Shown in pieces: positions 7,963-47,966 of a stretch of 64,000 nt of DNA. The stretch's first letter is position 1, and every line of letters begins with the position of its first letter. Made by a program: the position numbers and the translations under genes. The notes beneath the pieces were generated by a model that was given only the letters and a program-made list of their open reading frames with translations, did no database searches and was not told the DNA's origin. The stretch is from Streptomyces sp. NBC_00683. Lineage in GTDB: Bacteria; Actinomycetota; Actinomycetes; Streptomycetales; Streptomycetaceae. The stretch lies in the NCBI RefSeq assembly GCF_036226745.1, contig NZ_CP109013.1, forward strand, positions 1,798,001 through 1,862,000, in the 5' to 3' direction.

Positions 7963-7979
7963 TTCAACGAATTGTTGAA
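7963..7979. promoter_or_regulatory. 17-bp palindrome at allB (TTCAAC-N5-GTTGAA)
   Basis: TTCAACGAATTGTTGAA is a perfect inverted repeat with 6-bp arms and a 5-bp centre. It lies 20 bp before the allB start and just downstream of the proposed -10 box, where a repressor would cover the transcription start. Closely related elements occur at the uricase operon, catalase and aceB promoters. Confidence 0.65.
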
Positions 7980-7981
7980 GG

Positions 7982-8010
7982 AGTCTTCACTCGGGAAAGC
8001 ACCCCGTCAA
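7982..8010 (-). promoter_or_regulatory. Probable allB-alc promoter
   Basis: On the minus strand, TTGACG (8010-8005) and AAGACT (7987-7982) are separated by 17 bp. The -35 box is strong and the -10 box is only fair. The 17-bp palindrome begins 3 bp further downstream. Confidence 0.45.
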
Positions 8011-14060: not shown

Positions 14061-14077
14061 ATCAACAAACCATTGAA
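14061..14077. promoter_or_regulatory. Variant 17-bp element at the aceB promoter
   Basis: ATCAACAAACCATTGAA matches TTCAAC-N5-GTTGAA at 10 of 12 arm positions. Its right half runs into the -35 hexamer TTGAAC, the same geometry as at the uricase operon and catalase promoters. Confidence 0.5.
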
Positions 14078-14101
14078 CTTCCACCATGAGGAAACTAATA
14101 T
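14073..14101 (+). promoter_or_regulatory. Probable aceB promoter
   Basis: TTGAAC (14073-14078) and TAATAT (14096-14101) are separated by 17 bp, a good vegetative-sigma match in an AT-rich island. The first 15-bp box fills the spacer and the second covers the -10 box and start site, a layout that predicts repression. Confidence 0.7.
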
Positions 14102-14246: not shown

Positions 14247-15866
<1,620 letters not shown>

Positions 15867-29779: not shown

Positions 29780-29820
29780 CGTCAGGCTCCGGCGGCCATG
29801 CGTCAGGCTCCGGCGGCGAT
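29780..29820. repeat. 21-bp tandem duplication at the deaminase stop codon
   Basis: GCGTCAGGCTCCGGCGGC occurs twice in tandem with a 21-bp period. On the minus strand this duplicates the last codons and stop of the deaminase gene, so a fossil copy of the C-terminal end follows the real stop. Confidence 0.7.
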
Positions 29821-31200: not shown

Positions 31201-31305
31201 GGTGCTTCCTTCTTCTGTCTCTGGCGATGTGGGCACGGCAGGACCCTAGGAGGATTTGAGTGCCACAGCGTCGAGGCCGTGGGTGCCGAGGTGTGAGGAG
31301 GACGT

Positions 31306-31355: not shown

Positions 31356-32288
31356 TCAGAGGTTGGTCATGTCGACCGGGATCCTCGGTTCGACACCGTC
31401 CCGGAGCACCGTCGCCTCGATGAGGCCGTACGGCCGGTCGGCGGCGAAGTAGACGGCACCGTCGGCGGTATCGTTCTTCAGTCCGAAGGGCTCCAGGTCC
31501 ACGAGGAAGTGGTGGTTGTTCGGCAGCGAGAAGCGGATCTCGTCGATCTCGCTGCGGCTGTTGATGACGCGCGAACCCATCTGGTAGAGGGTCTGCTGGA
31601 GCGAGAGGGAGTACGTCTCGGCGAAGGCCTGCAGCATGTGCTTCTTGGCCTGCTCGTACGACTTCTCCCAGTTGGGCATCCGCTCGTCGTCGCTGGTCCA
31701 GTTGTAACGCCAGGCGGCCGACACGTCGGTGCACAGGACGCGGTCGTACGCCTCCTTGAGCGTCGTGTACCTGTCCTTGACGTAGCCCCAGAACTCCGAG
31801 TTGGTCGAGTTCATGACGGTGAGGTCCTTGAGACCGGAGATGATCTCCCAGTTCTCGCCGTCGAAGGTGATCTGGGTGGTGCGCAGCTCCTGGCCCTTGC
31901 GGGCGAAGGAGTGGTTGACCTCGTCGGCGCCGATGAACTTGGAGTTGCCGTCCGAGGTCGCGATGCGTTCCCAGGCGTACTCCTGGATCCGGATCCGCGC
32001 CGTCTTGATCGGCTCCTGCGAGGTCACGAAGTGCCGGGCGAGGTGGATGCCGAACTGCTCGGCGGACGCGATGCCGTGTTCCTTGGCGAAGGCGAACACC
32101 GTGTTCTTGGTGGTGTCGGTCGGCAGGACGTTCGCGTTGGAACCGGAGTAGTGGACCTCGTCCATGTCGCCGGAGAGGGCGACCGAGACGTTGAGGTCCT
32201 TGATGTGGTGGGTGTCGCCGTCCCGCGTGATCCTGACGACGCGGTTCTCTGCTTTGCCGTACTGGTTCTGGCCGAGAATCGTGGGCAT
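31356..32288 (-). CDS. Urate oxidase (uricase)
   Basis: A 310-residue cofactor-free oxidase turning urate, O2 and water into 5-hydroxyisourate and H2O2. Conserved regions are ANVLPTDTTKNTVFAFAKE (catalytic Thr and Lys pattern), HFVTSQEPIKTARIRIQEYAWERI, EVNHSFARKGQELRTTQITF and the C-terminal FSLPNNHHFLVDLEPFGL, including the active-site His. The length matches bacterial homotetrameric uricases. It starts 6 nt after the HIU hydrolase stop and is the third gene of uraD-uraH-uricase. The H2O2 it makes fits the shared 17-bp promoter element with the catalase gene at 43.5 kb. Confidence 0.97.
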   Translation of the reverse strand: MPTILGQNQYGKAENRVVRITRDGDTHHIKDLNVSVALSGDMDEVHYSGSNANVLPTDTTKNTVFAFAKEHGIASAEQFGIHLARHFVTSQEPIKTARIRIQEYAWERIATSDGNSKFIGADEVNHSFARKGQELRTTQITFDGENWEIISGLKDLTVMNSTNSEFWGYVKDRYTTLKEAYDRVLCTDVSAAWRYNWTSDDERMPNWEKSYEQAKKHMLQAFAETYSLSLQQTLYQMGSRVINSRSEIDEIRFSLPNNHHFLVDLEPFGLKNDTADGAVYFAADRPYGLIEATVLRDGVEPRIPVDMTNL

Positions 32289-32294
32289 TGTCTG

Positions 32295-32693
32295 CTAGCT
32301 CCCTCGGTAAACGGAGTAGCCGAACGGGTTGAGCAGCAGCGGTACGTGATAGTGCTCGCCCGGCGTGACGGCGAATGCGATCGCCACCTCCGGGAAAAAC
32401 GCACCGCTGTCCCTTACGCGGGGGGCGTCCTGCTGCGCCTCGGCTTGCTTCTGGCTGGTGAAGTACGACTCGGTGTCGAAGACGAGCCGTACGTGGGTGG
32501 TGCCTTCCGGCAGGGCCGGCAGGTCCTTGCAGCGCCCGTCCGCGTCGGTCGCGGATCCGCCGAGCGTCACGTACTGCGCGTCGCCGCCGCGGGCGGCGAG
32601 CGAGACGGTGACGGCTTCGGCGGGGCGGCCGATGCTGGTGTCCAGGATGTGGGTGGACACCGATGCGGTGGTGTCGGTGCTCAAGGCCGTCAC
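32295..32693 (-). CDS. uraH: 5-hydroxyisourate hydrolase (transthyretin-like)
   Basis: A 132-residue enzyme hydrolysing 5-hydroxyisourate to OHCU. It has the transthyretin-like fold marks VSTHILDTSIGRPAEAVTVSL (active-site His), a long second strand set (THVRLVFDTESYF), HYHVPLLLNPFGYSVYRGS, and ends exactly in the diagnostic C-terminal tetrapeptide YRGS. A 14-residue stretch with QAEAQQDAPRVRD in the middle is a modest insertion. The GTG at 32693 overlaps the uraD stop by 4 bp, so translation is coupled. It is the second gene of the operon. Confidence 0.96.
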   Translation of the reverse strand: MTALSTDTTASVSTHILDTSIGRPAEAVTVSLAARGGDAQYVTLGGSATDADGRCKDLPALPEGTTHVRLVFDTESYFTSQKQAEAQQDAPRVRDSGAFFPEVAIAFAVTPGEHYHVPLLLNPFGYSVYRGS

Positions 32694-33211
32694 GCTCCTT
32701 GTTCTGGGGTTTCCTGTACGAGGCGGGTCAGCCGGATACGGTTGATCTTGCCCAGTTCGGTGCGCACGATCTCACGCTCCTGCTCGGGCGAGTTCCCGAT
32801 CCGGGACTTCACCGCGTCGCGCATCTGCTCACCGGTTGCTCCGGTGGCGCAGATCAGGAAGACGTGGCCGAACCGCTCCTGGTAGGCCAGGTTCAGTTCG
32901 AGCATCTCGGTCCTGAGCTCCTCGGACGCTCCGGCCATCCCCCGCTGTTCGCGGGCGGAGGCCGGATCCCCGGGCTTCGGGCGGCCGATCGGCGGATGGC
33001 CTGCCATCGCTTCGGCCAGGTCCTCCACAGAGAGCTCGGCCGTGGCGGCGTCGCTCGTGGAGAACAGGGCTTCTGCGGTGGCGTACGGCCGGTGAGCGAG
33101 GACCGTGCTCCCCCATGCCGCGCTGGCGCACACCTCGTGCAGCGCGGCAGTGGCCTCTACGGCCGCCAGGGTGTTGAACCGGGCGAGGCCCGGTGTGGAG
33201 CTCGAAGTCAC
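32690..33211 (-). CDS. uraD: OHCU decarboxylase
   Basis: A 173-residue enzyme giving S-allantoin from 2-oxo-4-hydroxy-4-carboxy-5-ureidoimidazoline. The catalytic His lies in MAGHPPIGRPKPGD, followed by the conserved EQRGMAGASEELRTEMLELNLAYQERFGHVFLICATG block. It is the first gene of the uraD-uraH-uricase operon. The start at 33211 lies 72 bp from a 17-bp palindrome that overlaps the -35 box. The order places all three steps from urate to allantoin in one transcript, although the terminal enzyme is encoded first. Confidence 0.95.
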   Translation of the reverse strand: MTSSSTPGLARFNTLAAVEATAALHEVCASAAWGSTVLAHRPYATAEALFSTSDAATAELSVEDLAEAMAGHPPIGRPKPGDPASAREQRGMAGASEELRTEMLELNLAYQERFGHVFLICATGATGEQMRDAVKSRIGNSPEQEREIVRTELGKINRIRLTRLVQETPEQGA

Positions 33212-33259
33212 GGGAGCCTCCGTGGCTGTTTTTCGCTGTGCGTTGTACGGGCTGCGGAT

Positions 33260-33288
33260 AGCTAACGCCTTTCACAACATCACGTCAA
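33260..33288 (-). promoter_or_regulatory. Probable promoter of the uraD-uraH-uricase operon
   Basis: On the minus strand, TTGACG (33288-33283) and TTAGCT (33265-33260) are 17 bp apart. The -35 box is built into the right half of the 17-bp palindrome. Confidence 0.65.
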
Positions 33289-33300
33289 CAGTTTGTTGAA
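33284..33300. promoter_or_regulatory. 17-bp palindrome at the uricase operon
   Basis: Read toward the genes it is TTCAACAAACTGTTGAC, identical in all 17 bases and in orientation to the element before catalase at 43409-43425. The arms are TTCAAC and GTTGAC. Confidence 0.75.
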
Positions 33301-33318
33301 ATTCCGCGAACGCGGAGA

Positions 33319-33353
33319 GCCGCCGTCCCGGCATCCGGACAGCGGCTCTCGGT
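33319..33353 (-). terminator. Terminator after the HTH gene
   Basis: GAGAGCCGC and GCGGCTCTC arms enclose a loop of about 17 nt that itself can pair (CCGGCATCCGG). It lies between the stop of the HTH gene (33378) and the uricase operon promoter, separating the two units. Confidence 0.7.
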
Positions 33354-33377
33354 GCGCACGGCTCACCCCTCGGTCAA

Positions 33378-33755
33378 CTACTCACCCTTGGTACCGTCTT
33401 CGCGGTTGAGGTAGTTGTAGACGGTGAAGCGGCTGACGCCCAGGGCGCCCGCCACGGTCTCCACGCCGTGCCGTACGGCGAAGGCACCGCGTGCCTCCAG
33501 AGTCCGCACGATCCGCTGTTTGGTCTTGCGGTCCAGGTCGGCGAGCGGCATCCCGTGCCGCCGCTCCATTCCGGCCAGGATGTGGTCGAGCGAGTCGGAG
33601 AGCTGCGGGAGCCGCACGGCTATGACGTCCTCCCCCTCCCAGGCGAGCACCACATCGTCGGCCTGCGCCTGCTCGGGGCCGAGCAGCTCGGCGCCCATGG
33701 CGTCCACGAGCGGCTTCACCGCGGCGACCAGGGGGTGCTCCCCCTGTCCGGTCAC
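33378..33755 (-). CDS. Small helix-turn-helix protein (DauR/YheO-type HTH)
   Basis: A 125-residue protein. The C-terminal half is KTKQRIVRTLEARGAFAVRHGVETVAGALGVSRFTVYNYLNRE, matching the DauR-type HTH domain (PF13309 as I recall it) with its GVSRxTVYxYL recognition helix. The first 60 residues (HPLVAAVKPLVDAMGAELLG...VVLAWEGEDVIAVRLPQ) may be a small dimerisation or sensor module; the PAS-like domain usual in YheO is absent. The GTG at 33755 overlaps the upstream stop (GTGA). Lying directly before the uricase operon, it is a candidate regulator of it, which is inference. Confidence 0.8.
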   Translation of the reverse strand: MTGQGEHPLVAAVKPLVDAMGAELLGPEQAQADDVVLAWEGEDVIAVRLPQLSDSLDHILAGMERRHGMPLADLDRKTKQRIVRTLEARGAFAVRHGVETVAGALGVSRFTVYNYLNREDGTKGE

Positions 33756-34003
33756 GGGGTGTCCTCCCCGATCACGTTGACCTGGAGCGACACCCGGGTG
33801 GCACCCGAGGCCAGGGCCTTGCGCAGCAGGGAGTCCACGGCCGTGAGGACCTGGTCGGCGCCGCCCTCGGCCGTGTTGCCGAACGGTCCGACATCCACCG
33901 AGTCCAGCTCGGCCGTCCGGATCACCTCGCGGGCCACCACCGCATGGGCGGGCGCCTCGTCGAGATCGAAGGGCTCGGTGGTGAATTCCACCCTCAAGCG
34001 CAC
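33752..34003 (-). CDS. MTH1187/YkoF-like small protein
   Basis: An 83-residue protein: RVEFTTEPFDLDEAPAHAVVAREVIRTAELDSVDVGPFGNTAEGGADQVLTAVDSLLRKALASGATRVSLQVNVIGED. The order beta-alpha-beta, GPFGNTAEG loop, helix, then GATRVSLQVNV resembles the MTH1187/YkoF (thiamine-binding, PF01910-like) ferredoxin fold, in which GPxGTxxEG precedes the helix. This is a motif-level impression. It overlaps the HTH gene by 4 bp, so the two are co-translated. It may be a small-molecule sensor for the HTH partner; that is inference. Confidence 0.7.
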   Translation of the reverse strand: MRLRVEFTTEPFDLDEAPAHAVVAREVIRTAELDSVDVGPFGNTAEGGADQVLTAVDSLLRKALASGATRVSLQVNVIGEDTP

Positions 34004-34073
34004 TGTGCCTCCCTCATGTCCCCGCCGCGGTCGTCTGCTCGCACGGCTGGCTCCCGACCCTAAGGCACGGCGG

Positions 34074-34916
34074 TCAGGAGCCCGACTGGATGTCCCCGCG
34101 GGTGGAGGAGCTGATCGGGTCGCCGTGCGCGAAGTCGCCGGGCGGGATGCCGGGGTGGTGCCCGTCCCTGACCAGCCCCGCGGCGGCGGCCGCCGGACCG
34201 AGCGCGAGCCGGGAGACGATCCGGTACCGGTCGCCCCGGTAGACGGAGTGGACGTACTCCACGGGCCGGCCGGCGGTGTCCGAGGTCAGCCGCTCGAAGA
34301 GGAGCGCCGGGGACAGTTCCGGAACCTCCAGGAGCCGCGCCTCCGCCCGGGTGACGACGGTGGGCTCGATGGCCTGGACCGCCTCGTGGACGTGCACTCC
34401 GTGGGTGTCCCGCAGGTGCTCGTACAGGTCGCCGCTCTCCAGCTCGTGGGCCGACAGGCCGGGGACGAACGCCGCCCTGATGTGCAGGTGCTCGATGGCC
34501 ATCGGCGCCCCGTCGACCAGGCGCAGCCGGGCGACGTACACGATCTCCTCGGCGGGCGACATCCGCAGCTTGCGGCCGACCCGGGCGCCGGCCTGGAGGG
34601 TGGTGAACTCCAGCAGGCGGCTCGACCACGCCCCGGCCGCCTGCGGGACGCCCAGGGCGAGGTCGGCGGAGACGAGCTCCTGGGTGATCTTCTCGGGTGC
34701 GACGAACATGCCGCGGCCGTGTTCGCGGACCAGGAGCCCGGCGGCCACGAGCTCGTCGATCGCGGCGCGCACCGTGGGCCTGGACACGCCGAGCAGGGTG
34801 CAGAGGGCGCGCTCGGAGGGAATGGCGTCCCCGGGACTGCGCGACTCGATGAGCTCGAGGACGGCGTCGCGGGCCCGCTCCCGTTTGAGCACCGTCCCCG
34901 GTACGTCGTCTGCCAT
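34074..34916 (-). CDS. GntR/HutC-family regulator
   Basis: A 280-residue regulator. The N-terminal winged helix is VLELIESRSPGDAIPSERALCTLLGVSRPTVRAAIDELVAAGLLVREHGRGMFVAPE, canonical GntR. The C-terminal UTRA domain includes VGRKLRMSPAEEIVYVARLRLVDGAPMAIEHLHIRAAFVPGL and VEYVHSVYRGDRYRIVSRL. It belongs to the same type as DasR and other amino-sugar regulators. GGAGGGTG lies before the ATG at 34916. It is divergent from a sugar ABC importer-hexosaminidase operon and probably controls it through the TGGTC-rich region between; the effector is likely a phosphosugar. Confidence 0.92.
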   Translation of the reverse strand: MADDVPGTVLKRERARDAVLELIESRSPGDAIPSERALCTLLGVSRPTVRAAIDELVAAGLLVREHGRGMFVAPEKITQELVSADLALGVPQAAGAWSSRLLEFTTLQAGARVGRKLRMSPAEEIVYVARLRLVDGAPMAIEHLHIRAAFVPGLSAHELESGDLYEHLRDTHGVHVHEAVQAIEPTVVTRAEARLLEVPELSPALLFERLTSDTAGRPVEYVHSVYRGDRYRIVSRLALGPAAAAAGLVRDGHHPGIPPGDFAHGDPISSSTRGDIQSGS

Positions 34917-35166
34917 GCCTTCACCCTCCTGACGTCAGGTTTCACCTGACCAGTTGACCAACAGGCTCTCACTGGTCAGGGCAGTGTAGCCGCCCTTTAC
35001 GAGAAGGACAGAGGACTCCGGCACTCAGAGATCATCAAGACCCCTTTGTACACAAGGGGTTGACGGCCCCATTGGTCTATGCCACCTTCATCCACCACCA
35101 AGAGGTGAGCTGTCCAGTGGGCTTCACTGGTCAGGTGGTCAGGTCCTGTTCTCGTTGAGGTGAACC
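34917..35166. promoter_or_regulatory. Divergent control region of the GntR gene and sugar ABC operon
   Basis: There is no gene in these 250 bp. ACTGGTCAGG occurs twice forward (near 34971 and 35126) and once inverted (CCTGACCAGT, near 34945). ATTGGTCTATGCCACC near 35071 resembles DasR-type sites built from TGGTC half-sites. A 21-bp imperfect palindrome with ACCCCTT/AAGGGGT arms spans 35040-35060. These are candidate sites for the adjacent GntR protein or DasR. Confidence 0.6.
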
Positions 35167-36432
35167 GTGAAGTACCGCTTGCTTGCCGGTGGTTGCGCGC
35201 TTGTGATGGCCGCCGCCCTCAGTGCCTGTAGTTCCTCCTCGGACGACGCCGGTGAGGCCGGTGGTGTGACGACGGTCGACGTCTGGCTGATGCGCGACAG
35301 CGTCTCGGCCGCTTTCCAGAAGGAGTTCGTCGCGGGCTTCGAGGCCCAGCACCCGGAGATCAAGGTCAAGGTCCAGATCCAGGAGTGGGACGGGATCGGG
35401 CAGAAGATCACCGCGGCGCTGGCCAGCAACGACGCCCCGGACGTGATCGAGGCGGGCAACACCCAGGTGGCTCAGTTCGCCGAGAGCGGCGGGCTGCTGG
35501 ACCTCAGCGACAAGAAGGACGAGCTGAACGGGAAGGACTGGCTGAAGGGCCTGGCCGAGCCCGGCTCGTACAAGGGGAAGCAGTACGGGATCCCCTACTA
35601 CGCGGCCAACCGGGTCGTCATCTACCGCACGGACCTGTTCGAGAAGGCCGGGGTCGACGCCGCCTCCATCACCACGCGTGAGCAGTGGATCGCTGCCACC
35701 ACCAAGCTCAACAAGGGCGGCACGCAGGGCATTTACCTGCCCGGACAGCTCTGGTACGCGCTGGGCGGCTTCATCTGGGACGAGGGCGGCGACTTCGCCA
35801 CCGAGTCCGGTGGCAGCTGGAAGGGCGCGCTGGACTCGCCCGAGGCGCTGCGCGGCATGGAGTTCTACGCCCAGCTCCAGGCACTCGGCAAGGGTCCCAA
35901 GGACTCCGACGAGGACGATCCGCCGCAGGCCGAGGTGATGGCGCAGGGGCAGGTGGCCCAGGTGATCTCCACTCCGGGCGGGGCGAACGTGGTCATGGAG
36001 AACAACCCGGAGCTCAAGGGAAAGCTCGGCTTCTTCCCGATCCCGGGCAAGACGGCCGGCACTCCGGGCGCGGTGTTCACCGGGGGATCCGATCTGGTCG
36101 TGCCCGCCGCGGCCGGCCACCCCGACGAGGCGCTGACGTTCATCAAGGAACTCACGGGCGACGCCTGGCAGAAGAAGCTCGCCGTGGCCATGAGCTATGT
36201 GCCCAACCGGACCACGCTGGCCTCGTCCGTGGCCGGTGACCCGGGCGCCTCCGCGATGGCGGTCGGCGCGGCGAACGGCCATGCGACGCCCAACACGCCC
36301 GGCTGGGCAGCGGTCGAGGCCGAGAACCCGATCAAGGACTACATGACCGCGGTCCTCACCGGCAAGAACGCCGCGGCGGAGGCCGCCAAGGCCTCGGCGG
36401 ACATCACCAGGGCCATGAACGCCGGCTCCTGA
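35167..36432 (+). CDS. Sugar ABC transporter substrate-binding lipoprotein
   Basis: A 421-residue extracellular solute-binding protein (MalE/UgpB class). The signal ends in the lipobox LSAC followed by a serine cluster. TTVDVWLMRDSVSAAFQKEFVAGFEAQHPEIKVKVQIQEWDG is the typical opening lobe. APDVIEAGNTQVAQFAESGGLLDLS, GIPYYAANRVVIYRTDLFEKAG, GGSDLVVPAAAGHPDEALTFIKELTG and NTPGWAAVE follow. The resemblance is to Streptomyces amino-sugar binders such as NgcE, so N-acetylglucosamine oligomers are a likely ligand, also because GH20 follows. The GTG at 35167 has GAGG upstream. It heads the five-gene importer/hydrolase run. Confidence 0.92.
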   Translation: MKYRLLAGGCALVMAAALSACSSSSDDAGEAGGVTTVDVWLMRDSVSAAFQKEFVAGFEAQHPEIKVKVQIQEWDGIGQKITAALASNDAPDVIEAGNTQVAQFAESGGLLDLSDKKDELNGKDWLKGLAEPGSYKGKQYGIPYYAANRVVIYRTDLFEKAGVDAASITTREQWIAATTKLNKGGTQGIYLPGQLWYALGGFIWDEGGDFATESGGSWKGALDSPEALRGMEFYAQLQALGKGPKDSDEDDPPQAEVMAQGQVAQVISTPGGANVVMENNPELKGKLGFFPIPGKTAGTPGAVFTGGSDLVVPAAAGHPDEALTFIKELTGDAWQKKLAVAMSYVPNRTTLASSVAGDPGASAMAVGAANGHATPNTPGWAAVEAENPIKDYMTAVLTGKNAAAEAAKASADITRAMNAGS

Positions 36433-36481
36433 CCCCGCCCGCTTCCGCCCTGCCCTTCCCCTCACCGAAAGGAGGCCTGCC

Positions 36482-37447
36482 GTGCCGGTCGTCCGTGAAC
36501 GGACCGCACCACGCGTCCATCATCCCGCGGGAGCACCGCCGGGGCGGCGGCCCCGCCCCTCGCGCAACCTCTGGCCGTACGCCCTGATCGCCCCCGCGAT
36601 CGGCGGCATGCTCTACCTGCTCGTGTACCCGCTCGCGCGGGCCGTGCTGATCTCGCTGCAGGACTTCCGGCTCCGCCAGCTGATCAGCGGGGACGCGGAG
36701 TTCGTCGGACTGCGGAACTACCGGACGCTGCTGTCCGACCCGCGGTTCTGGGAGGTGGTCGGCCGCACCTTCGTGTTCATGGCCGTCAACGTCGTACTGA
36801 TCATGGTCATCTCCACCCTGGTCGCGCTGATGACGGAGCGGCTCGGCCGGGCGGGGCGCACAGCGGTGCTCTGTGCGCTGGTGCTCGCCTGGGCCATGCC
36901 GGTGGTCGCGGCCACCACGGTCTTCCAGTGGCTGTTCCACTCCGAGTTCGGCATCGTCAACTGGTTGCTGACCTCGCTCGGCTTCGGCTCGTTCGACCGC
37001 TACCCGTGGTTCGCGAACGGTACGGCGGCCTTCGTGATCCTGGTGGTACTCATCGTCTGGCAGTCCGTGCCGTTCGCGGCGATCACCCTCTACTCGGCGC
37101 TCACCACCGTCCCGGCCGAGCTCTACGAGTCGGCCCGGCTGGACGGTGCGTCCGGCGTCCGGATCTTCCGCTCGGTCACCTTCCCGATGCTCCGGCCGAT
37201 CTTCATGCTGGTCTTCTCGCTCGAGGTGATCTGGACGTTCAAGGCGTTCGTCCAGATCTGGGTGATGACCCGCGGCGGTCCCGGCGACTCCACCACGATC
37301 CTGCCCGTGTACGCGGTCCAGACGGCGCTCTCCAGCCAGCGCTACGACCTGGGGTCCGCCGCTTCGATGGTCACCGTGGTGCTGATGTCCGGGGTGCTCG
37401 TCCTCTACTTCCGCCAGATGTTCCGCCAGGAGGACGAACTCCGATGA
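36482..37447 (+). CDS. Sugar ABC transporter permease 1
   Basis: A 321-residue inner-membrane permease of the MalF/UgpA class with six spans, beginning LWPYALIAPAIGGMLYLLVYPLARAVLISL. The coupling EAA motif is ESARLDGASGVRIFRSVTFPMLRP. The following FSLEVIWTFKAFVQIWVMTRGGPGDSTTILPVYAV is typical of this class. The GTG at 36482 has an excellent AAAGGAGG site. The last bases overlap permease 2 (ATGA, 37444-37447). No ATPase is encoded nearby; Streptomyces sugar importers commonly share the MsiK ATPase. Confidence 0.94.
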   Translation: MPVVRERTAPRVHHPAGAPPGRRPRPSRNLWPYALIAPAIGGMLYLLVYPLARAVLISLQDFRLRQLISGDAEFVGLRNYRTLLSDPRFWEVVGRTFVFMAVNVVLIMVISTLVALMTERLGRAGRTAVLCALVLAWAMPVVAATTVFQWLFHSEFGIVNWLLTSLGFGSFDRYPWFANGTAAFVILVVLIVWQSVPFAAITLYSALTTVPAELYESARLDGASGVRIFRSVTFPMLRPIFMLVFSLEVIWTFKAFVQIWVMTRGGPGDSTTILPVYAVQTALSSQRYDLGSAASMVTVVLMSGVLVLYFRQMFRQEDELR

Positions 37448-38283
37448 CCCTGCTACGCCCCCGGATCCGGCGGATCCCGCTCAACGCCGCCGCTGTCGTG
37501 ACCGTCGTCGTCTGCCTCTTCCCGGTGTACTGGATGATCTCGACGGCCTTCAAGCCGTCCCGGGACATCCAGTCGGCCGACCCGCAGCTCGTTCCGTACA
37601 CCTGGACGCTGGACCACTTCCGACGGGCCGTGCAGGCCGACGGGTTCGAGCTGTTCTGGCGCAACAGCATCCTGGTCACGCTCGGCGCGGTGCTGCTGGC
37701 GCTGGTCGTGGCGCTCGGGTCGGCGTTCGCCGTGGCCAGGATGAGGTGGAAGGGCCGGCGCCAGTTCATGCTGCTGGTCTTCATCGCCCAGATGGCGCCC
37801 TGGGAGTCGTTGATCATCCCCATCTACATCATCTCCCGCGACACGGACATGCTCGACCGGCTGCCGACGCTGACCCTGGTCTACTTCATGATCACGCTGC
37901 CGTTCACGATCGTGGTGCTGCGGGGCTTCATCGCGACCATCCCGCCCGAGCTGGAGGAGGCGGCGCAGGTCGACGGCTGCACCCGGACCGGCGCCTTTCG
38001 GCGAGTGGCGCTGCCCCTGCTCGCTCCCGGCCTGATGGCCACCTCGCTCTTCGGATTCATCACCGCCTGGAACGAGTTCGCGTACGCCAACTTCCTGATC
38101 ATCAAGCAGCAGGACAACCGCACCCTGCCGGTCTGGCTGTCGTCCTTCCAGAACACCTTCGGCACGGACTGGGGCGCCACCATGGCCGCCTCCACGCTCT
38201 TCGCCCTGCCCGCGCTGGTCATCTTTCTGCTCCTCCAGCGCCATGTCACCTCCGGCTTCGCGGCCGGCGCCGTCAAGGGCTGA
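37444..38283 (+). CDS. Sugar ABC transporter permease 2
   Basis: A 279-residue permease of the MalG/UgpE class with six spans. It has the characteristic opening NAAAVVTVVVCLFPVYWMISTAFKPSRDIQ and the EAA motif EEAAQVDGCTRTGAFRRVALPLLAPGLMAT, then ITAWNEFAYANFLIIKQQDNRTLPVWL. It starts within the permease 1 stop by a 4-bp overlap and pairs with it to form the channel. A hexosaminidase gene starts 50 bp downstream, so imported substrate is probably an amino-sugar oligomer. Confidence 0.95.
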   Translation: MTLLRPRIRRIPLNAAAVVTVVVCLFPVYWMISTAFKPSRDIQSADPQLVPYTWTLDHFRRAVQADGFELFWRNSILVTLGAVLLALVVALGSAFAVARMRWKGRRQFMLLVFIAQMAPWESLIIPIYIISRDTDMLDRLPTLTLVYFMITLPFTIVVLRGFIATIPPELEEAAQVDGCTRTGAFRRVALPLLAPGLMATSLFGFITAWNEFAYANFLIIKQQDNRTLPVWLSSFQNTFGTDWGATMAASTLFALPALVIFLLLQRHVTSGFAAGAVKG

Positions 38284-38333
38284 CCCCCGTCGCCGTACCG
38301 CGAACCGCCCGAGATCCGAATCCGGAGGCCCCC

Positions 38334-39896
38334 ATGCCCGCATCACGCCCCGAGCTCTCCCTCGTACCCCGGCCCCGCAAGGTCTCGCCCCGCCCCGGCC
38401 GCTTCGTCCTCGACGCCGGCACCTGCGTCCGTGCCCTGCCGGGCACCGAAGCGGCGGCCGAGCTGCTGCGTACGCTGCTCGGCCCGGCCACCGGCCTGCC
38501 GCTGGCCCCCGCGGCCGACGGCCGGATCGTCCTGGCGCTCGACCCGCAGCTCGGCGGGCTCGGCGAGGAGGGGTACGGCCTCACCGTCGGACCGCAGGCG
38601 CTTCTGCTGCGCGCCGCCCGGCCGACCGGACTGCTCCGCGGGGTGCAGACGATCCGTCAGCTGCTGCCCCCCGAAGCCCTTTCGGGCGGTGCGCGGGCCG
38701 CGTCCTGGGAGCTGCCGTGCGTCGAGATCAGCGATGTGCCGCGCTACCCGTGGCGCGGCGCGATGCTCGATGTGGCCCGGCACTTCCAGCCCGTGTCGTA
38801 TCTGCGCCGGTACGTCGACCTCCTGGCCTTCCACAAACTCAACACGCTCCATCTGCACCTCACCGACGACCAGGGCTGGCGCATGCCGGTGGACGCCTTT
38901 CCGCGGCTGACCTCGGTGGGGAGCCACCGGGCCGAGTCGCTGTCCGACGGTGTCCCGCACTCGGGGGCGTACACCAAGCAGGAGCTGCGGGACCTGGTCG
39001 GCCACGCCGCGGCCCGCGGGGTGACGGTCGTACCCGAGATCGAGATGCCCGGTCATGTGCGCGCGGCCCTCGCCGCCTACCCCGAGCTGGGCAACCACCC
39101 GGGCCGGAGTCTCGATGTCTGGACCGAATGGGGCGTCTGCGACACCGTGCTCGGCGTCCACGAGCAGGTCTTCGACTTCTGCCGGACGGTGCTGGAGGAG
39201 GTCATGGACGTCTTCCCGTCCCCGTACATCCACATCGGCGGCGAGGAGTGCCCGACCACCGAATGGGAGAACAGCCCCGCGGCCCGTGACCGGGCGGCGG
39301 CCGAGGGGCTCGCCGGTCCCGGGGCGCTGCACGGCTGGTTCATGGGCCGCATCGGGTCGTTCCTCGTGGAGCGGGGGCGCAGGCCCACCGGCTGGGCCGA
39401 GACCGGCACCGAACTCCCCCTCGACTTCACGGTGATGACCTGGCGCGACCCGGCCCACGCCCGTGCCGCCGCCCGCCGCGGCCACCGGGTGGTGAGCGCG
39501 CATCACCGTGCCACGTACCTCGACTACGCCCAGTCCACGGATCCGGGCGAGCCGCCCGCGCAGCCGGGAGACCCCGTCGGTCTGCACACCGTGTACGGCA
39601 ACGAGCCGGCGCCGGAGGACTGGGAGGCCGGCGAGGCCGAGCTGGTCCTGGGCACCCAGGCGCAGTTGTGGACCGAGTACGTGCGGACGCAGGACCGGAT
39701 CGAGTACCTCACCTACCCCCGCCTGTGCGCCCTGGCCGACCGCGCCTGGTCCGGCAGCGGCGGTGACTGGCCGGGGTTCGTCGAGCGCCTGCGCCACCAC
39801 ACCGCGCGGCTGGACGCCCTCGGTGTCCCCTACCACCCCCTGACCCCGCGGTCCCTCATGACCGCCTCCGCAGGTACAGCGCCATCCCCTCGGTAG
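38334..39896 (+). CDS. Beta-N-acetylhexosaminidase, GH20
   Basis: A 520-residue glycosidase that removes terminal N-acetylglucosamine from chitin-type oligomers. It has an N-terminal GH20b domain (VPRPRKVSPRPGRFVLDAG) and the GH20 barrel: YPWRGAMLDVARHFQPVSYLRRYVDLLAFHKLNTLHLHLTDDQGWRM, VTVVPEIEMPGHVRAALAAYPELGN and YIHIGGEECPTTEWE. The usual catalytic GGDE pair appears as GGEE here, with Glu in place of the assisting Asp. There is no evident signal peptide, which fits hydrolysis inside the cell after import. GGAGG precedes the ATG at 38334. It follows the two permease genes in one operon. Confidence 0.93.
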   Translation: MPASRPELSLVPRPRKVSPRPGRFVLDAGTCVRALPGTEAAAELLRTLLGPATGLPLAPAADGRIVLALDPQLGGLGEEGYGLTVGPQALLLRAARPTGLLRGVQTIRQLLPPEALSGGARAASWELPCVEISDVPRYPWRGAMLDVARHFQPVSYLRRYVDLLAFHKLNTLHLHLTDDQGWRMPVDAFPRLTSVGSHRAESLSDGVPHSGAYTKQELRDLVGHAAARGVTVVPEIEMPGHVRAALAAYPELGNHPGRSLDVWTEWGVCDTVLGVHEQVFDFCRTVLEEVMDVFPSPYIHIGGEECPTTEWENSPAARDRAAAEGLAGPGALHGWFMGRIGSFLVERGRRPTGWAETGTELPLDFTVMTWRDPAHARAAARRGHRVVSAHHRATYLDYAQSTDPGEPPAQPGDPVGLHTVYGNEPAPEDWEAGEAELVLGTQAQLWTEYVRTQDRIEYLTYPRLCALADRAWSGSGGDWPGFVERLRHHTARLDALGVPYHPLTPRSLMTASAGTAPSPR

Positions 39897-39933
39897 CTCA
39901 ATCCCCCACCACTGTTCCGGAGAGGAACATCCC

Positions 39934-41367
39934 ATGAGGAAGATCGACAGGAGCCGGCTCCGTTCGGCCGCGGCTGCCGCCGTCACCGTGGCGCTGGGCT
40001 GCACCGCCCTCGCCGCCGTCCCCTCGACCGCCGGCGCCGCTGCCGCTGCCGACGGGCTCGTCGTCCAGTACCGCACGAGTGCGTCCGGAGCGACGGCCGA
40101 CCAGAGCGAGCCCTGGCTGAAGGTGCGCAACACCGGCAGTACGAGCGTCCCGCTCAGCAACGTCAAGGTGCGGTACTACTTCAAGGCCGATTCGGCCTCT
40201 ACGGCCTACCGGTTCGCCTGCTCCTGGGCGGTGAAGGGCTGCGGGAACATCACCGGTACGTTCGGGACGCTCGCGAACCCGACGGCAGACGCCGACCGCT
40301 ACCTGGAGATCGCGTTCACCTCGGGCGCGGGCTCCCTGGCCCCCGGTGCGGACACCGGGGACATGCAGCTGCGCTTCCACCGGGCGGACTGGCAGTCGCT
40401 GCGGCAGAGCGACGACTACTCCTTCGGCGCCGAGCGGACCGCGTACGGCGACTGGCCCCGGATCACCGCGCAGCTCGGCGGGGTCACGGCCTGGGGCGAG
40501 GCTCCCGGCGGCAACGGCCCGACGGATCCGACGGATCCCCCCACCGATCCGCCGGCGGACGGGCCCAGGCTGTTCGACGACTTCAACTACAGCGGCCACA
40601 CGGACCCGGGTATCGCCGCGCACGGCTGGAGCGTCCGCTCCAACTCCGGCGGTCCGGGTGTGCCGGGTGCCGTGTGGGCTCCGGAGAACGTCACCTTCAG
40701 CAGCCAGAGCGGCAATTCGGTGATGAACCTGGAGACGTCCACGGCGGGTACCGGCGCCTCGACGGAGCACACGGAGATCCTCACGCAGGCCACGAAGTTC
40801 CGTAACGGCACCTATGCGGCCCGGGTGAAGTTCAGCGACGCCCCCCGGTCCGGGCCCGACGGCGACCACCTCGTCCAGACGTTCTTCACCATCAACGACC
40901 TCAAGGCGCCGATGGCGGACGACTACGCGGAGTACGACTTCGAGTACCTGCCCAACGGCGGCTGGGGCGAGCCGGCCAACATCCTCTACACGACGTCGTG
41001 GGAGACCTACCGCCCCGACCCGTGGGAGGCCGTCAACCAGCACAGCGAGGCGCGGCAGAGCTATGCGGGCTGGCACGACCTGGTGGTGACCATCGACAAC
41101 AGCGCCATCACGTACTACGTCGACGGGCAGCACTTCGGCACGCACGGGGCGGCGTACCTGCCGGAGCGGCCGATGTCGATCAACTTCAACCAGTGGCTGA
41201 TCGACCTGGCGGGCCAGAGCAGCACCACGCCCCGGTCCTACGACCAGCAGGTGGACTACGTCCTGCATGTGAAGGACCAGGTCCTGTCCCCGGCCCAGGT
41301 GTCCGCACTGGTGGGCCAGTACCGGGCGGCGGGCACGACCTTCCAGGACACGGTGCCGGCCGGCTGA
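39934..41367 (+). CDS. Secreted CBM3-GH16 beta-glycosidase
   Basis: A 477-residue exported enzyme. A signal peptide (to about residue 36, STAGAAAAA) is followed by a CBM3-like beta-sandwich (LVVQYRTSASGATADQSEPWLKVRNTGSTSVPLSNVKVRYYF...FHRADWQSLRQSDDYSF). A Pro/Asp/Thr linker (PTDPTDPPTDPP) comes next, then a GH16-type domain with the catalytic motif EYDFEYLPNGGW (E-x-D-x-E). CBM3 usually binds cellulose; GH16 enzymes cleave beta-1,3(4)-glucans and related polymers. GGAGAGG precedes the ATG at 39934. It is the last gene before a strong terminator, 37 bp after GH20. Confidence 0.9.
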   Translation: MRKIDRSRLRSAAAAAVTVALGCTALAAVPSTAGAAAAADGLVVQYRTSASGATADQSEPWLKVRNTGSTSVPLSNVKVRYYFKADSASTAYRFACSWAVKGCGNITGTFGTLANPTADADRYLEIAFTSGAGSLAPGADTGDMQLRFHRADWQSLRQSDDYSFGAERTAYGDWPRITAQLGGVTAWGEAPGGNGPTDPTDPPTDPPADGPRLFDDFNYSGHTDPGIAAHGWSVRSNSGGPGVPGAVWAPENVTFSSQSGNSVMNLETSTAGTGASTEHTEILTQATKFRNGTYAARVKFSDAPRSGPDGDHLVQTFFTINDLKAPMADDYAEYDFEYLPNGGWGEPANILYTTSWETYRPDPWEAVNQHSEARQSYAGWHDLVVTIDNSAITYYVDGQHFGTHGAAYLPERPMSINFNQWLIDLAGQSSTTPRSYDQQVDYVLHVKDQVLSPAQVSALVGQYRAAGTTFQDTVPAG

Positions 41368-41387
41368 CCCGGCGGGTGTGACCGGCG

Positions 41388-41418
41388 GCGGGGTGGAGGC
41401 GGGCGGCCTCCACCCCGC
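41388..41418 (+). terminator. Terminator after the CBM3-GH16 gene
   Basis: GCGGGGTGGAGGC (41388-41400) pairs perfectly with GCCTCCACCCCGC (41406-41418) around a 5-nt loop, 20 nt after the stop. It closes the importer/hydrolase operon. Confidence 0.85.
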
Positions 41419-41447
41419 TTCGGCACGTCCGGAAGTCAGGACGCCTC

Positions 41448-41477
41448 TTGACAGCCCCACCTCCTTCCGGGCAATCT
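41448..41477 (+). promoter_or_regulatory. Possible hyi-glxR promoter
   Basis: TTGACA (41448-41453) and CAATCT (41472-41477) are 18 bp apart. The -35 box is perfect and the -10 box weak. The paired 15-bp boxes begin at the -10 box and extend over the likely start site, a repressor layout. Confidence 0.5.
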
Positions 41478-41512
41478 TCCGTTAAGCAGAAACTAACTTC
41501 CGCAATACGGAA
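41477..41512. promoter_or_regulatory. Paired 15-bp boxes, 21 bp apart, upstream of hyi
   Basis: TTCCGTTAAGCAGAA (41477-41491) and TTCCGCAATACGGAA (41498-41512). The second is a perfect TTCCG-N5-CGGAA palindrome and ends 10 bp before the hyi start, touching its ribosome binding site. Starts are exactly 21 bp apart. Confidence 0.75.
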
Positions 41513-41522
41513 GGAGCGCACT

Positions 41523-42362
41523 ATGGGTTACTCGGACCAGCGCTTCGATGTGAACCTCTCGATCCTCTTCACCGAACTCCCGCTCCTGGAGCGCCCCGCG
41601 GCGGCCGCCGCCGCGGGCTTCACCGCGGTCGAGCTCTGGTGGCCCTGGACGGAGACCCCCACCCCCGCGCAGGCCGAGCTCGACGCCCTGAAGGGGGCGC
41701 TCGACGCAGCGGGCACGCAGCTGGTGGGGCTGAACTTCTACGCGGGCCAGCTGCCCGGCCCCGACCGTGGCGCACTGTCCGTGCCCGGCGCGGAGTCGGA
41801 CCGCTTCCGCGCCAACATCGCGGTGGCGGCCGAATTCGCCGCCTCGGTCGGCTGCCGGGCGCTCAACGCGCTGTACGGCAACCGCGTCGACGGCGTGGAC
41901 CCGGCCGCACAGGACGCGCTCGCCCTGGAGAACCTGACCGCCGCCGCCCGCGCGGCCGACGGAATCGGGGCCACCCTCCTGATCGAGACCCTCAACAAGC
42001 CGGAGTCGCCGCTCTACCCGTTGGTGAGCGCACCGGCGGCGATCGAGGTCGTCGACCGGGTCAACGAGGCGACGGGACTGGGGAACGCCGCTTTCCTGCT
42101 GGACCTCTACCACCTGTCGATGAACGGCGAGGACCTCGGCCAGGTGATCAAGGCGTACGCCGCCAAGACCGGCCTCGTCCAGATCGCCGACAACCCGGGG
42201 CGCGGCGCGCCGGGCACCGGCTCACTCCCGCTGGAGCAGCTCCTCGACGAGCTGGCGCAGGCCGGCTACGAGGGCTGGGTCGGCCTGGAGTACAAGCCGG
42301 GCGACCGGCCGAGCGCAGAGTCCTTCGACTGGCTCCCGGCCGCGGCCCGGCCGGCCCGCTGA
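41523..42362 (+). CDS. hyi: Hydroxypyruvate isomerase
   Basis: A 279-residue TIM-barrel isomerase interconverting hydroxypyruvate and tartronate semialdehyde. The opening RFDVNLSILFTELPLLERPAAAAAAGFTAVELWWPW is typical of Hyi. Metal-site carboxylates lie in LLIETLNKPESPLYPL (Glu), FLLDLYHLSMNGEDL (Asp) and WVGLEYKPGDRPSAESFDWL (Glu), with QIADNPGRGAPGTGSL between. GGAAGGAG lies before the ATG at 41523; a longer frame from 41448 would read through the operator and is rejected. It is the first gene of hyi-glxR. It handles the product of glyoxylate carboligase encoded 5 kb away. Confidence 0.95.
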   Translation: MGYSDQRFDVNLSILFTELPLLERPAAAAAAGFTAVELWWPWTETPTPAQAELDALKGALDAAGTQLVGLNFYAGQLPGPDRGALSVPGAESDRFRANIAVAAEFAASVGCRALNALYGNRVDGVDPAAQDALALENLTAAARAADGIGATLLIETLNKPESPLYPLVSAPAAIEVVDRVNEATGLGNAAFLLDLYHLSMNGEDLGQVIKAYAAKTGLVQIADNPGRGAPGTGSLPLEQLLDELAQAGYEGWVGLEYKPGDRPSAESFDWLPAAARPAR

Positions 42363-42405
42363 GGCCCCGGCCCCCTCGTACACACGCTTATCGGAAGGCA
42401 CCCTC

Positions 42406-43299
42406 ATGAGCAACAACCTCCCCAAGGTCGCGTGGATCGGGCTCGGCATCATGGGCTCGCCCATGTCCGAGAACCTGATCGAGGCCGGTTACGACGTCAC
42501 CGGCTACACCCTGGAGCAGGACAAGATCGACCGGCTGGTCGCGGCGGGCGGCAAGGGTGCCGCCTCGATCGCGGACGCGGTGCGCGACGCCGACGTCGTC
42601 ATCACGATGGTGCCCGCGTCGCCGCAGGTCGAGGCCATCGCGTACGGCCCCGACGGCATCCTGGAGAACGCGCGGCCCGGTGCTCTGCTGATCGACATGT
42701 CCTCGATCACGCCGCAGACCTCCGTGGACCTGGCGAAGAACGCGAAGGCCAAGGACATCCGCGTACTGGACGCCCCGGTCTCCGGTGGTGAGGCCGGCGC
42801 GATCGAGGCCGTGCTGTCCATCATGGTCGGCGGTGAGCAGACCGACTTCGACGCCGCGCAGCCCCTCCTGAACGCTCTGGGCAGGACGATCGTGCTGTGC
42901 GGACCGCACGGCTCGGGCCAGACGGTGAAGGCCGCCAACCAGCTGATCGTCGCGGTCAACATCCAGGCGTGCGCCGAGGCCGTGGTCTTCCTGGAGAAGT
43001 CCGGCGTCGACCTGGCCGCGGCCCTCGACGTCCTGAACGGCGGACTGGCCGGCTCGACGGTCCTGACCCGCAAGAAGGACAACTTCCTCAAGCGGGACTT
43101 CGCTCCGGGCTTCCGGATCGACCTGCACCACAAGGACATGGGCATCGTCACGGACGCCGCCCGCAACGTCGGTGCCGCCCTGCCCGTCGGCGCGGTCGTG
43201 GCCCAGCTGGTCGCCTCGCTGCGCACGCAGGGCGACGGCGGGCTGGACCACTCCGCGCTGCTGCGTGCCGTCGAGCGCCTCTCCGGCTCCCAGGTCTGA
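42406..43299 (+). CDS. glxR: Tartronate semialdehyde reductase (2-hydroxy-3-oxopropionate reductase)
   Basis: A 297-residue NAD(P)H-dependent beta-hydroxyacid dehydrogenase giving D-glycerate. The nucleotide loop is AWIGLGIMGSPMSENLIEAGYDVTGYT. Next come the substrate motif LDAPVSGGEAGAIEAVLSIMVGG and the catalytic lysine region CGPHGSGQTVKAANQLIVA. The C-terminal helical domain (RIDLHHKDMGIVTDAARNVGAALPVGAVVAQL) is complete. GGAAGG precedes the ATG at 42406. It follows hyi by 43 bp in the same operon. With Gcl and Hyi it converts two glyoxylates to glycerate and CO2. Confidence 0.96.
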   Translation: MSNNLPKVAWIGLGIMGSPMSENLIEAGYDVTGYTLEQDKIDRLVAAGGKGAASIADAVRDADVVITMVPASPQVEAIAYGPDGILENARPGALLIDMSSITPQTSVDLAKNAKAKDIRVLDAPVSGGEAGAIEAVLSIMVGGEQTDFDAAQPLLNALGRTIVLCGPHGSGQTVKAANQLIVAVNIQACAEAVVFLEKSGVDLAAALDVLNGGLAGSTVLTRKKDNFLKRDFAPGFRIDLHHKDMGIVTDAARNVGAALPVGAVVAQLVASLRTQGDGGLDHSALLRAVERLSGSQV

Positions 43300-43306
43300 C
43301 ACCCCC

Positions 43307-43325
43307 GGCCCTGCCCCGCAGGGCC
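43307..43325 (+). terminator. Terminator after glxR
   Basis: GGCCCTGC and GCAGGGCC form a perfect 8-bp stem with a CCC loop, 8 nt after the stop, separating glxR from the catalase gene. Confidence 0.7.
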
Positions 43326-43408
43326 CCCCGAACTCCGGGTCGCGGTGGCGCTGACACCTGTCCTGTCGCGCCCAGGCGCCGCCGCGGCCCGGAATCATCT
43401 CCTCCAAT

Positions 43409-43425
43409 TTCAACAAACTGTTGAC
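43409..43425. promoter_or_regulatory. 17-bp palindrome at the catalase promoter
   Basis: TTCAACAAACTGTTGAC, identical over 17 bp to the uricase operon element and in the same orientation to the gene. Its last five bases are part of the -35 hexamer TTGACG. Confidence 0.75.
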
Positions 43426-43450
43426 GTTCCGTTCCCGGCGAATCTACGCT
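43421..43450 (+). promoter_or_regulatory. Probable catalase promoter
   Basis: TTGACG (43421-43426) and TACGCT (43445-43450) are 18 bp apart, ending 37 bp before the ATG. The -35 hexamer overlaps the 17-bp palindrome. Confidence 0.65.
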
Positions 43451-43487: not shown

Positions 43488-44945
43488 ATGTCGAAGCGTG
43501 TGCTCACGACCGAGTCAGGCGCCCCGGTCGCCGACAACCAGAACTCCGCCACGGCCGGCGCCGGTGGGCCGATCCTCCTCCAGGACCAGCACCTGCTGGA
43601 GAAGCTCGCCCGCTTCAACCGCGAGCGCATCCCGGAGCGCGTCGTCCACGCCCGCGGCTCCGGCGCGTACGGCTACTTCGAGGTGACGGACGACGTCACC
43701 GGCTTCACCCGCGCCGACTTCCTCTCCGAGGTGGGCCGACGCACCGAGACGTTCATCCGGTTCTCGACGGTCGCCGACTCCCTCGGCGGCGCGGACGCCG
43801 TACGCGACCCGCGGGGCTTCGCCCTCAAGTTCTATACGGACGAGGGCAATTACGACCTCGTCGGCAACAACACCCCGGTGTTCTTCATCAAGGACCCGAT
43901 CAAGTTCCCCGACTTCATCCACTCGCAGAAGCGCGACCCGTTCACGGGCCGCCAGGAGCCGGACAACGTCTGGGACTTCTGGGCGCACTCCCCCGAGGCG
44001 ACGCACCAGATCACCTGGCTGATGGGTGACCGCGGCATCCCCGCCTCGTACCGCCACATGAACGGCTACGGCTCGCACACCTACCAGTGGACGAACGCGG
44101 CGGGCGAGGCCTTCTTCGTGAAGTACCACTTCAAGACGAACCAGGGCGTGCGCTCCCTCTCCGCCGACCAGGGCGCCGAGCTCGCCGGCAAGGACGCCTC
44201 CTCGCACCAGACGGATCTGCTCCAGGCCATCGAGCGCGGGGTCAACCCGTCGTGGACGCTGCACGTGCAGGTCATGCCGGCCGCGGAGGCCGCCGACTAC
44301 CGCTTCAACCCGTTCGACGTCACCAAGGTGTGGCCGCACAGCGACTATCCGCTGCAGCGGGTGGGCCGCCTGGTCCTCGACCGCAACCCGGACAACGTGT
44401 TCGCCGAGGTCGAGCAGGCCGCCTTCTCCCCGAACAACTTCGTGCCGGGCATCGGCCCGTCGCCGGACAAGATGCTGCAGGGCCGGCTGTTCGCGTACGC
44501 CGACGCGCACCGCTACCGGCTGGGCATCAACCACACCCAGCTCCCGGTCAACGCGCCGAAGGCGGCCGTCGTCGACAACTACGGCCGCGACGGCCTGCAC
44601 GCGACGCGCTACGGCTCGCGCCAGGACAAGAACTACGAGCCCAACTCGTACTCCGGTCCCGCGGAGACCGGCGCCGCCCTGGCCGCGCCGCTCGCCGTCC
44701 ACGGCTGGACGGGTACGCACGAGGCACCGGCCCACACGAAGGACGACGACTTCTTCCAGGCCGGTGAGCTCTACCGCCTGATGTCGGCGGACGAGAAGGA
44801 CCGGCTGATCGCCAACATCGCCGGCGGCCTCTCGCAGGTCACCCGCGACGACGTGATCGAGAAGAACCTGGCCCACTTCCATGCAGCGGACGCCGACTAC
44901 GGCACCCGCGTGGAGAAGGCGGTCCGCGCGCTGCGCGAGGACTGA
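43488..44945 (+). CDS. Monofunctional haem catalase (small subunit, clade 3)
   Basis: A 485-residue catalase. The distal His is in [16 protein letters not shown]; Asn in [14 protein letters not shown] and the Phe pair around it are conserved. The proximal haem-ligand signature [14 protein letters not shown] contains the tyrosine. Size fits clade 3 small-subunit enzymes with NADPH binding. GGAAGG precedes the ATG at 43488. It lies between glxR and gcl and shares a 17-bp promoter element with the uricase operon, so its likely duty is disposal of H2O2 from urate oxidation, not only general stress defence. Confidence 0.96.
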
Positions 44946-47930: not shown

Positions 47931-47966
47931 TTCCGCATTACGGAAATTCTGTTCTGCTATGTGGAA
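47931..47966. promoter_or_regulatory. Paired 15-bp boxes, 21 bp apart, upstream of gcl
   Basis: TTCCGCATTACGGAA (47931-47945) is a perfect TTCCG-N5-CGGAA palindrome; TTCTGCTATGTGGAA (47952-47966) is a weaker copy. Starts are 21 bp apart. They lie directly after the -10 box, so binding would block transcription. Confidence 0.78.

Follow-up and report, generated by a model that had tools for sequence, protein, structure and literature searches.

A 17-bp element before uricase, catalase and allantoinase genes of the Streptomycetaceae, and a short HTH_22 protein as its probable repressor

A stretch of 64,000 nucleotides from Streptomyces sp. NBC_00683 (contig NZ_CP109013.1, positions 1,798,001 to 1,862,000; from here on "the window", with a G+C content of 70%) carries the same 17-bp element in front of two different units: the uraD-uraH-uricase operon and a catalase gene. 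This raises two questions. Which genes does the element mark, and which protein reads it? A preliminary description of the window had proposed that uricase and a dedicated catalase are controlled together by a regulator distinct from the one that binds a second, 15-bp box, possibly a small helix-turn-helix protein encoded beside uraD. From comparisons of sequence across many genomes, we think it quite probable that the 17-bp element is the operator of a purine and ureide regulon across the Streptomycetaceae, that the small protein, which has a C-terminal HTH_22 domain, is its repressor, and that the IclR-family regulator AllR acts on the 15-bp box.

We begin with the source genome. The element, TTCAACAAACTGTTGAC, lies at 33284-33300 on the minus strand, upstream of uraD (OHCU decarboxylase; 32690..33211, minus; PF09349, NF010372), uraH (hydroxyisourate hydrolase; 32295..32693, minus; TIGR02962) and uricase, the urate oxidase that produces hydrogen peroxide (H2O2; 31356..32288, minus; TIGR03383). 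It lies again at 43409-43425 on the plus strand, upstream of the catalase of the purine cluster (43488..44945, plus; PF00199). A site search confirms what had been described, namely that the two copies agree in 17 of 17 bases and have the same orientation relative to their genes. They are the only exact copies among the 8,519,659 bases of the genome, where about 0.00002 would be expected from base composition (assuming 71% G+C), and the window holds three matches with up to three mismatches against 0.02 expected from shuffles, so a chance repeat can be rejected. The core of the element, TTCAACN5GTTGA, gives three forward and three reverse matches in the genome, which make four places since two of them are palindromic; the backward control gives none, and about 0.4 would be expected genome-wide under the same assumed composition. 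The four places lie upstream of allantoinase (allB; 6587..7942, minus; TIGR03178), the uraD-uraH-uricase operon, the catalase and the urease gamma subunit gene ureA, whose locus (L006) is outside the window. The allantoinase site (7963-7979) and the ureA site had been overlooked, as had a degenerate copy at 14061-14077 before malate synthase. All four core-bearing genes belong to one route, which leads from urate through allantoin and urea to ammonia, together with removal of the H2O2 made by uricase. The pairing of uricase with catalase stood, but as a description of the regulon it was too narrow, since allantoinase and, in the source genome, urease carry the site as well.

The position of the element within these promoters suggests what kind of protein would bind it. 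The promoters of uraD, catalase and allB were predicted by reading the sequence, so their start sites are likely positions only. The right arm of the element had been described as part of the -35 hexamer TTGACG before both uraD (33283..33288, minus) and catalase (43421..43426, plus), and this holds; in each case a spacer of 18 nt then leads to the -10 hexamer, TAGCTA at 33259..33264 (minus) and TACGCT at 43445..43450 (plus). The uraD hexamer TTGACG is invariant in 52 aligned promoters. The allB promoter reads TTGACG-N17-AAGACT, with its -35 at 8005..8010 and its -10 at 7982..7987 (both minus), and the -35 recurs in relatives. Here the element is a perfect palindrome, TTCAACAATTCGTTGAA (7963..7979, minus), that starts 3 nt downstream of the -10 and lies over the likely start site. 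Since the element sits on the -35 of two promoters but on the likely start site of the third, we infer that a single protein serving all three would most probably be a repressor.

These sites have been kept in evolution. The element is not missing from orthologous promoters, a finding that the preliminary description had named as telling against it. Orthologues of the catalase (85-100% identity, with all other matches at or below 72%) occur in 37 of 61 Streptomyces genomes. In 34 of the 37 the gene shares a contig with uraD at a distance of at most 25 kb, and in the other three it lies on a different contig of a draft genome (coordinates compared by eye). Every one of the 37 promoters has the element, 35 of them with all 17 bases unchanged and two with a single change. 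It was found at up to two mismatches in none of the regions upstream of 11 other catalases (56-72% identity), controls chosen by hand among the lower matches and including two from the source genome.

The uraD promoters tell the same story. The HTH_22 gene is in one piece in 58 of the 61 Streptomyces genomes, counting five matches that were flagged with a stop and proved whole on reading (G003, G007, G018, G027 and G049), and the element is upstream of uraD in all 58 (30 of 30 loci with the source genome included, then 22 of 22, then 6). The distance from element to uraD is 61-104 bases in 30 genomes and about 340 in G031. A further 22 Streptomyces with the HTH_22 gene all have the uraD element, 21 at no more than one mismatch and G292 at two. 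In other genera it precedes uraD in 19 of the 19 HTH_22-bearing genomes with uraD in view, from a sample of 20 genomes (15 genera) out of 104 that bear the gene; the twentieth, G435 (L330), had uraD out of view in the first stretch, and a later stretch shows sites at both uraD and allB. The total is 99 of 99 uraD promoters in HTH_22 genomes examined, 98 of them at no more than one mismatch, with ten further HTH_22-bearing Streptomyces of the family search standing outside this count. At allB the element was seen in 78 of 80 loci that carry AllR, the other two (L035 and L078) being stretches that start 44 and 171 bases before allR. At ureA, at least three loci are among the matches listed for the 61 Streptomyces genomes. 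The aligned 37 catalase and 52 uraD promoters vary in their flanks but all agree at 17 of the 18 positions of TTCAACAAANTGTTGACG, so the element is conserved before orthologous genes beyond the sequence around it. We believe this strongly supports the proposed joint control of uricase and its dedicated catalase.

Which protein, then, is the regulator? The candidate is encoded at 33378..33755 on the minus strand, directly upstream of uraD, and its gene co-occurs with the operator. Its product of 125 residues matches HTH_22 (PF13309) at residues 56-117 with 71.9 bits against a cut-off of 29.6. It had been called DauR-type. The helix-turn-helix domain bears that out; no YheO/PAS-like N-terminal domain was matched in the protein by Pfam at E<=0.001, so it is better described as a short HTH_22 protein than as DauR. 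An AlphaFold model (mean pLDDT 84.8, pTM 0.57) gives it a small alpha/beta N-terminal part. A structure search with this model returned nothing at E<=0.001 (best E 0.9), and no sequence relative was found in the Protein Data Bank at E<=1. The stretch SRFT[VI]YNYL is invariant in 29 aligned orthologues, and database names of the closest relatives go only as far as, for example, "helix-turn-helix domain-containing protein" or "transcriptional regulator". Within the Streptomycetaceae the protein occurs in 139 of 150 genomes and 16 of 17 genera. In a sample of the class, searched at E<=1e-20 with the best 8-14 candidates per genome scored, it occurs in 25 of 28 Streptomyces and in none of 268 genomes of other genera. 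Its gene is directly upstream of uraD in most genomes, the exceptions being some kilobases off or on another contig.

Its immediate neighbour in the window is an 83-residue protein (33752-34003) that lies upstream of the HTH_22 gene and overlaps it, with a Thiamine_BP match just under the cut-off. In many relatives the hydroxypyruvate isomerase gene, hyi, takes the place of this gene as upstream neighbour.

Genomes that have lost the HTH_22 gene offer a further comparison. Five keep the uricase operon without an intact copy: the gene is broken into two frames in G010, survives as a C-terminal relic in G439, and is absent from G211, G361 and G376. The uraD element at no more than one mismatch is found in none of the five; G010 has a relic with two mismatches, G439 one with three, and the others have none. 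Set against 99 of 99, this has a hypergeometric probability of 1e-8, with relatedness ignored. A tree of uraD-uraH-uricase built from 41 chosen genomes does not bring the five together: G010, G211 and G376 lie apart from one another, and G361 and G439 fall in a small group with G037, which keeps both the HTH_22 gene and the site. The allB promoters of G010 and G361 are also without the element. We excluded G043 and G257, whose stretches examined show no uricase operon, G335, G364, G392 and G399, which have only distant uraD paralogues, G370, which has no uraD, and the incomplete genomes G050 and G464, where uraD is at a contig end.

A first rival explanation is that both the 15-bp box and the 17-bp element are bound by AllR, encoded divergently from allB (8288..9088, plus; PF09339/PF01614, with its best NCBIfam matches below their cut-offs). 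AllR is an IclR-family protein that controls allantoin and glyoxylate genes in S. coelicolor and E. coli. Since the allB site lies beside allR, this was our own first hypothesis, and allR does adjoin the allB site in all 78 loci where the site was seen. It was dropped after the loss comparisons. G010, G211 and G361 have lost their sites despite keeping AllR (82%, 83% and 78% identity). G221 is the reverse: AllR has no match in it (8 of 58 candidates were scored) and the interval from allB to aceB contains no allR, but the HTH_22 gene is kept, along with a perfect allB site and the uraD site. Sites that are lost with HTH_22 despite AllR, and kept with HTH_22 despite the loss of AllR, follow HTH_22 and not AllR.

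The 15-bp box provides AllR with a better home. This box, TTCCGN5CGGAA, stands before hyi (TTCCGCAATACGGAA, 41498..41512, plus) and before the glyoxylate carboligase gene gcl (TTCCGCATTACGGAA, 47931..47945, plus) in the window, and a form with one mismatch lies at 41477-41491, 21 bp upstream of the hyi box. Relatives have the box or one-mismatch forms of it before hyi and upstream of allR. AllR is also more widespread than HTH_22, being found in 96 of 296 genomes in the class sample, from 35 of 114 genera, under the same scoring. In other families, each of nine loci of 15-20 kb that carry AllR (L237-L244 and L249) has at least one 15-bp box near allR, hyi, aceB or uraD, and the 17-bp site at up to one mismatch is absent from them with one exception (G106). 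The published consensus for IclR group 1 is GKTYCRYW3-4RYGRAMC and for group 2 TGRAACAN1-2TGTTYCA (PMC8222616). By eye, the 15-bp box matches group 1. The 17-bp element shares the AACA..TGTT core of group 2, a point in favour of AllR as its binder, but its gap of 3 bp is a poorer fit than the 1-2 bp of that consensus. We conclude that the 15-bp box is probably the AllR box, and that AllR is unlikely to be the protein that reads the 17-bp element.

The two kinds of element also occur together. Many Streptomyces have a 15-bp-like element after the 17-bp element at allB. In the window, 14061-14095 holds a 17-bp-like and 15-bp-like pair in the promoter of malate synthase (aceB; 14247..15866, plus; TIGR01344), the first member being the degenerate element ATCAACAAACCATTGAA (14061..14077, plus). 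The same pair precedes aceB in the loci of ten relatives (L083, L085, L123, L125, L126, L214, L216, L218, L222 and L253). Judging from this arrangement, two regulators may share the malate synthase promoter.

A second rival holds that the element is bound by a regulator encoded elsewhere, for instance a urate sensor of the MarR or TetR family, and that the HTH_22 gene is only a neighbour lost along with the sites, or a co-regulator. MarR-type urate sensors with palindromic operators do exist (HucR and PecS), and a TetR-type gene stands directly before ureA with the site in between. We considered this TetR gene as the regulator and set it low, as it is beside ureA in just two of the three ureA loci examined and was unmatched in the other loci searched with it; most genomes, on the other hand, have the HTH_22 gene adjacent or close to uraD or catalase. 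We therefore regard an unlinked regulator as improbable. The last possibility, that the element is a mere promoter feature such as an extended -35 or else a chance repeat, gains something from its right arm being a good -35 hexamer in two promoters, but 11 of the 12 bases upstream of that hexamer are invariant in the 37 catalase and 52 uraD promoters while the flanks vary, and at allB the palindrome comes after the -10, so this reading can be set aside as most improbable.

Several observations do weigh against assigning the element to the HTH_22 protein. Although its HTH_22 gene has decayed, G439 keeps GTCAACAGAGCGTTGAC before allB with the core intact, and the two-mismatch relic of G010 is still in place at uraD. 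G106, from another family and with no HTH_22 match at E<=1e-20, has a one-mismatch form, TTCAACAGTTTGTTGAG (L244, 10789-10805), before a xanthine-dehydrogenase-like gene. G464, which is 71% complete, has the site and its HTH_22 gene was not found; its contig begins 64 bases before uraD. In G211 and G010 the uraD protein has diverged (identity about 42-53%), and G211 has an incomplete allB as well, so that the pathway as a whole may be in decay in these two genomes. No AllR was seen in the stretches examined of G376 and G439, so only three of the five losses separate HTH_22 from AllR. There is no site before the HTH_22 gene itself in the window, and another regulator may have been lost together with HTH_22. 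Despite these points, we believe that the neighbourhood of the gene and the losses in both directions support the HTH_22 protein as a regulator distinct from the one that binds the 15-bp box, as first suggested.

If this is right, the system could work as follows. The HTH_22 protein would bind the palindrome as a dimer. Without a signal from the purine pathway, it would block RNA polymerase through the -35 at uraD-uraH-uricase and catalase, and would also cover the likely start site of allB and, in the source genome, the urease promoter. The signal would be urate, allantoin or allantoate. A metabolite of the purine pathway is a more likely signal than peroxide, because the regulon includes allantoinase and urease. 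With the signal present the protein would leave, and uricase, the catalase that removes its H2O2 and the downstream ureide enzymes would be made together. AllR, as a separate IclR-type regulator, would act on the 15-bp box before gcl and hyi, two glyoxylate genes. Elements of both kinds adjoin each other at malate synthase, as they do at allB in many relatives.

We also hold, with rather less assurance though still as the reading we favour, a broader idea. An HTH_22 protein without a PAS domain would be the family-wide repressor of uricase, the uricase-dedicated catalase and allantoinase, and in some species it would repress urease and malate synthase too. A metabolite would thereby arm the peroxide defence before any H2O2 is made. 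In the Streptomycetaceae this protein would have taken over purine genes whose sole controller in other Actinomycetes is AllR, giving a circuit with two operators. If true, this assigns a regulator to the urate pathway in soil bacteria that produce antibiotics. It would also be a clean case of feed-forward protection, in which the matching catalase is induced by what the H2O2-producing enzyme consumes and not by its H2O2. Because HTH_22 has been lost without AllR and AllR without HTH_22, it would in addition be a good natural system for studying how operators decay after their regulator is lost.

Other features of the window and its relatives can be added here. The uricase operon continues into a gene for an amidohydrolase resembling 8-oxoguanine deaminase (29803..31236, minus; NF006055 above cut-off). 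Repeated TGGTCA/TGACCA half-sites at 34940-35145 separate a GntR/UTRA regulator (34074-34916) from a transporter set that is divergent to it (from 35167); read by eye, they are likely operators of that regulator. In L131, L133-L138, L140 and L149, perfect palindromes with the 17-bp core also lie close to where a cyclophilin-like gene begins (PF04126, checked on L137 alone); in several species this gene sits between cydA-like and hisC-like genes. A possible further member of the regulon is a DUF6986 gene (checked on L143 alone): L142, L143 and L145 have the 17-bp core, either perfect or one mismatch away, in the gap that separates it from an etfB-like gene. The palindromes at L130, L132 and L139 fit neither setting and may be due to chance.

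Published data touch these genes at several points. Going by its gene number, SCO6208 of S. coelicolor may be the HTH_22 gene. It is adjacent by number to SCO6209 and is listed as a "putative transposase" (PMC3897704). SCO6209-6211 are uraD, uraH and uricase, and their expression falls in a manner dependent on HbpS-SenS-SenR (PMC4991794). One RNA-seq comparison in S. coelicolor has SCO6209 (uraD), SCO6247 (allB) and SCO6248 up together, with log2 values of 3.11, 2.92 and 2.43 (PMC6629963). A ccaR mutant of S. clavuligerus shows reduced signals for both urease and allantoinase (PMC3992018). We found no paper in the open-licence library searched that names this regulator or operator, and the two are probably a new pair.

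It remains to place the pair among known systems. Regulators of the DauR/YheO type share the C-terminal HTH_22 domain (PF13309) with our protein. DauR has an N-terminal YheO/PAS-like domain and a role in D-arginine catabolism; the source protein differs in having only 125 residues, no YheO/PAS-like match and a proposed target in purine catabolism. The MarR proteins HucR, PecS and UrtR carry out urate-linked repression, and their family and operator are unlike those of the HTH_22 protein. AllR, which Navone et al. reportedly studied in S. coelicolor in 2015, is encoded beside allB in the source genome, and the evidence ties it to TTCCGN5CGGAA and not to the 17-bp element. The motif given for E. 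coli AllR is KTTGGAAWAWTWTTCCAAC (PMC8222616). XdhR, a TetR-family protein of S. coelicolor, represses an earlier purine step, xdhABC, and differs from the HTH_22 protein in family, in its ligand (p)ppGpp and in target; the main text of the review that describes it does not contain the words "uricase", "allantoin" or "AllR" (PMC6627660). Finally, expression of the same operon in S. coelicolor depends on the HbpS-SenS-SenR redox system, but the sequence predicted as the SenR site upstream of SCO6209 is GC-rich and unlike the 17-bp element (PMC4991794).

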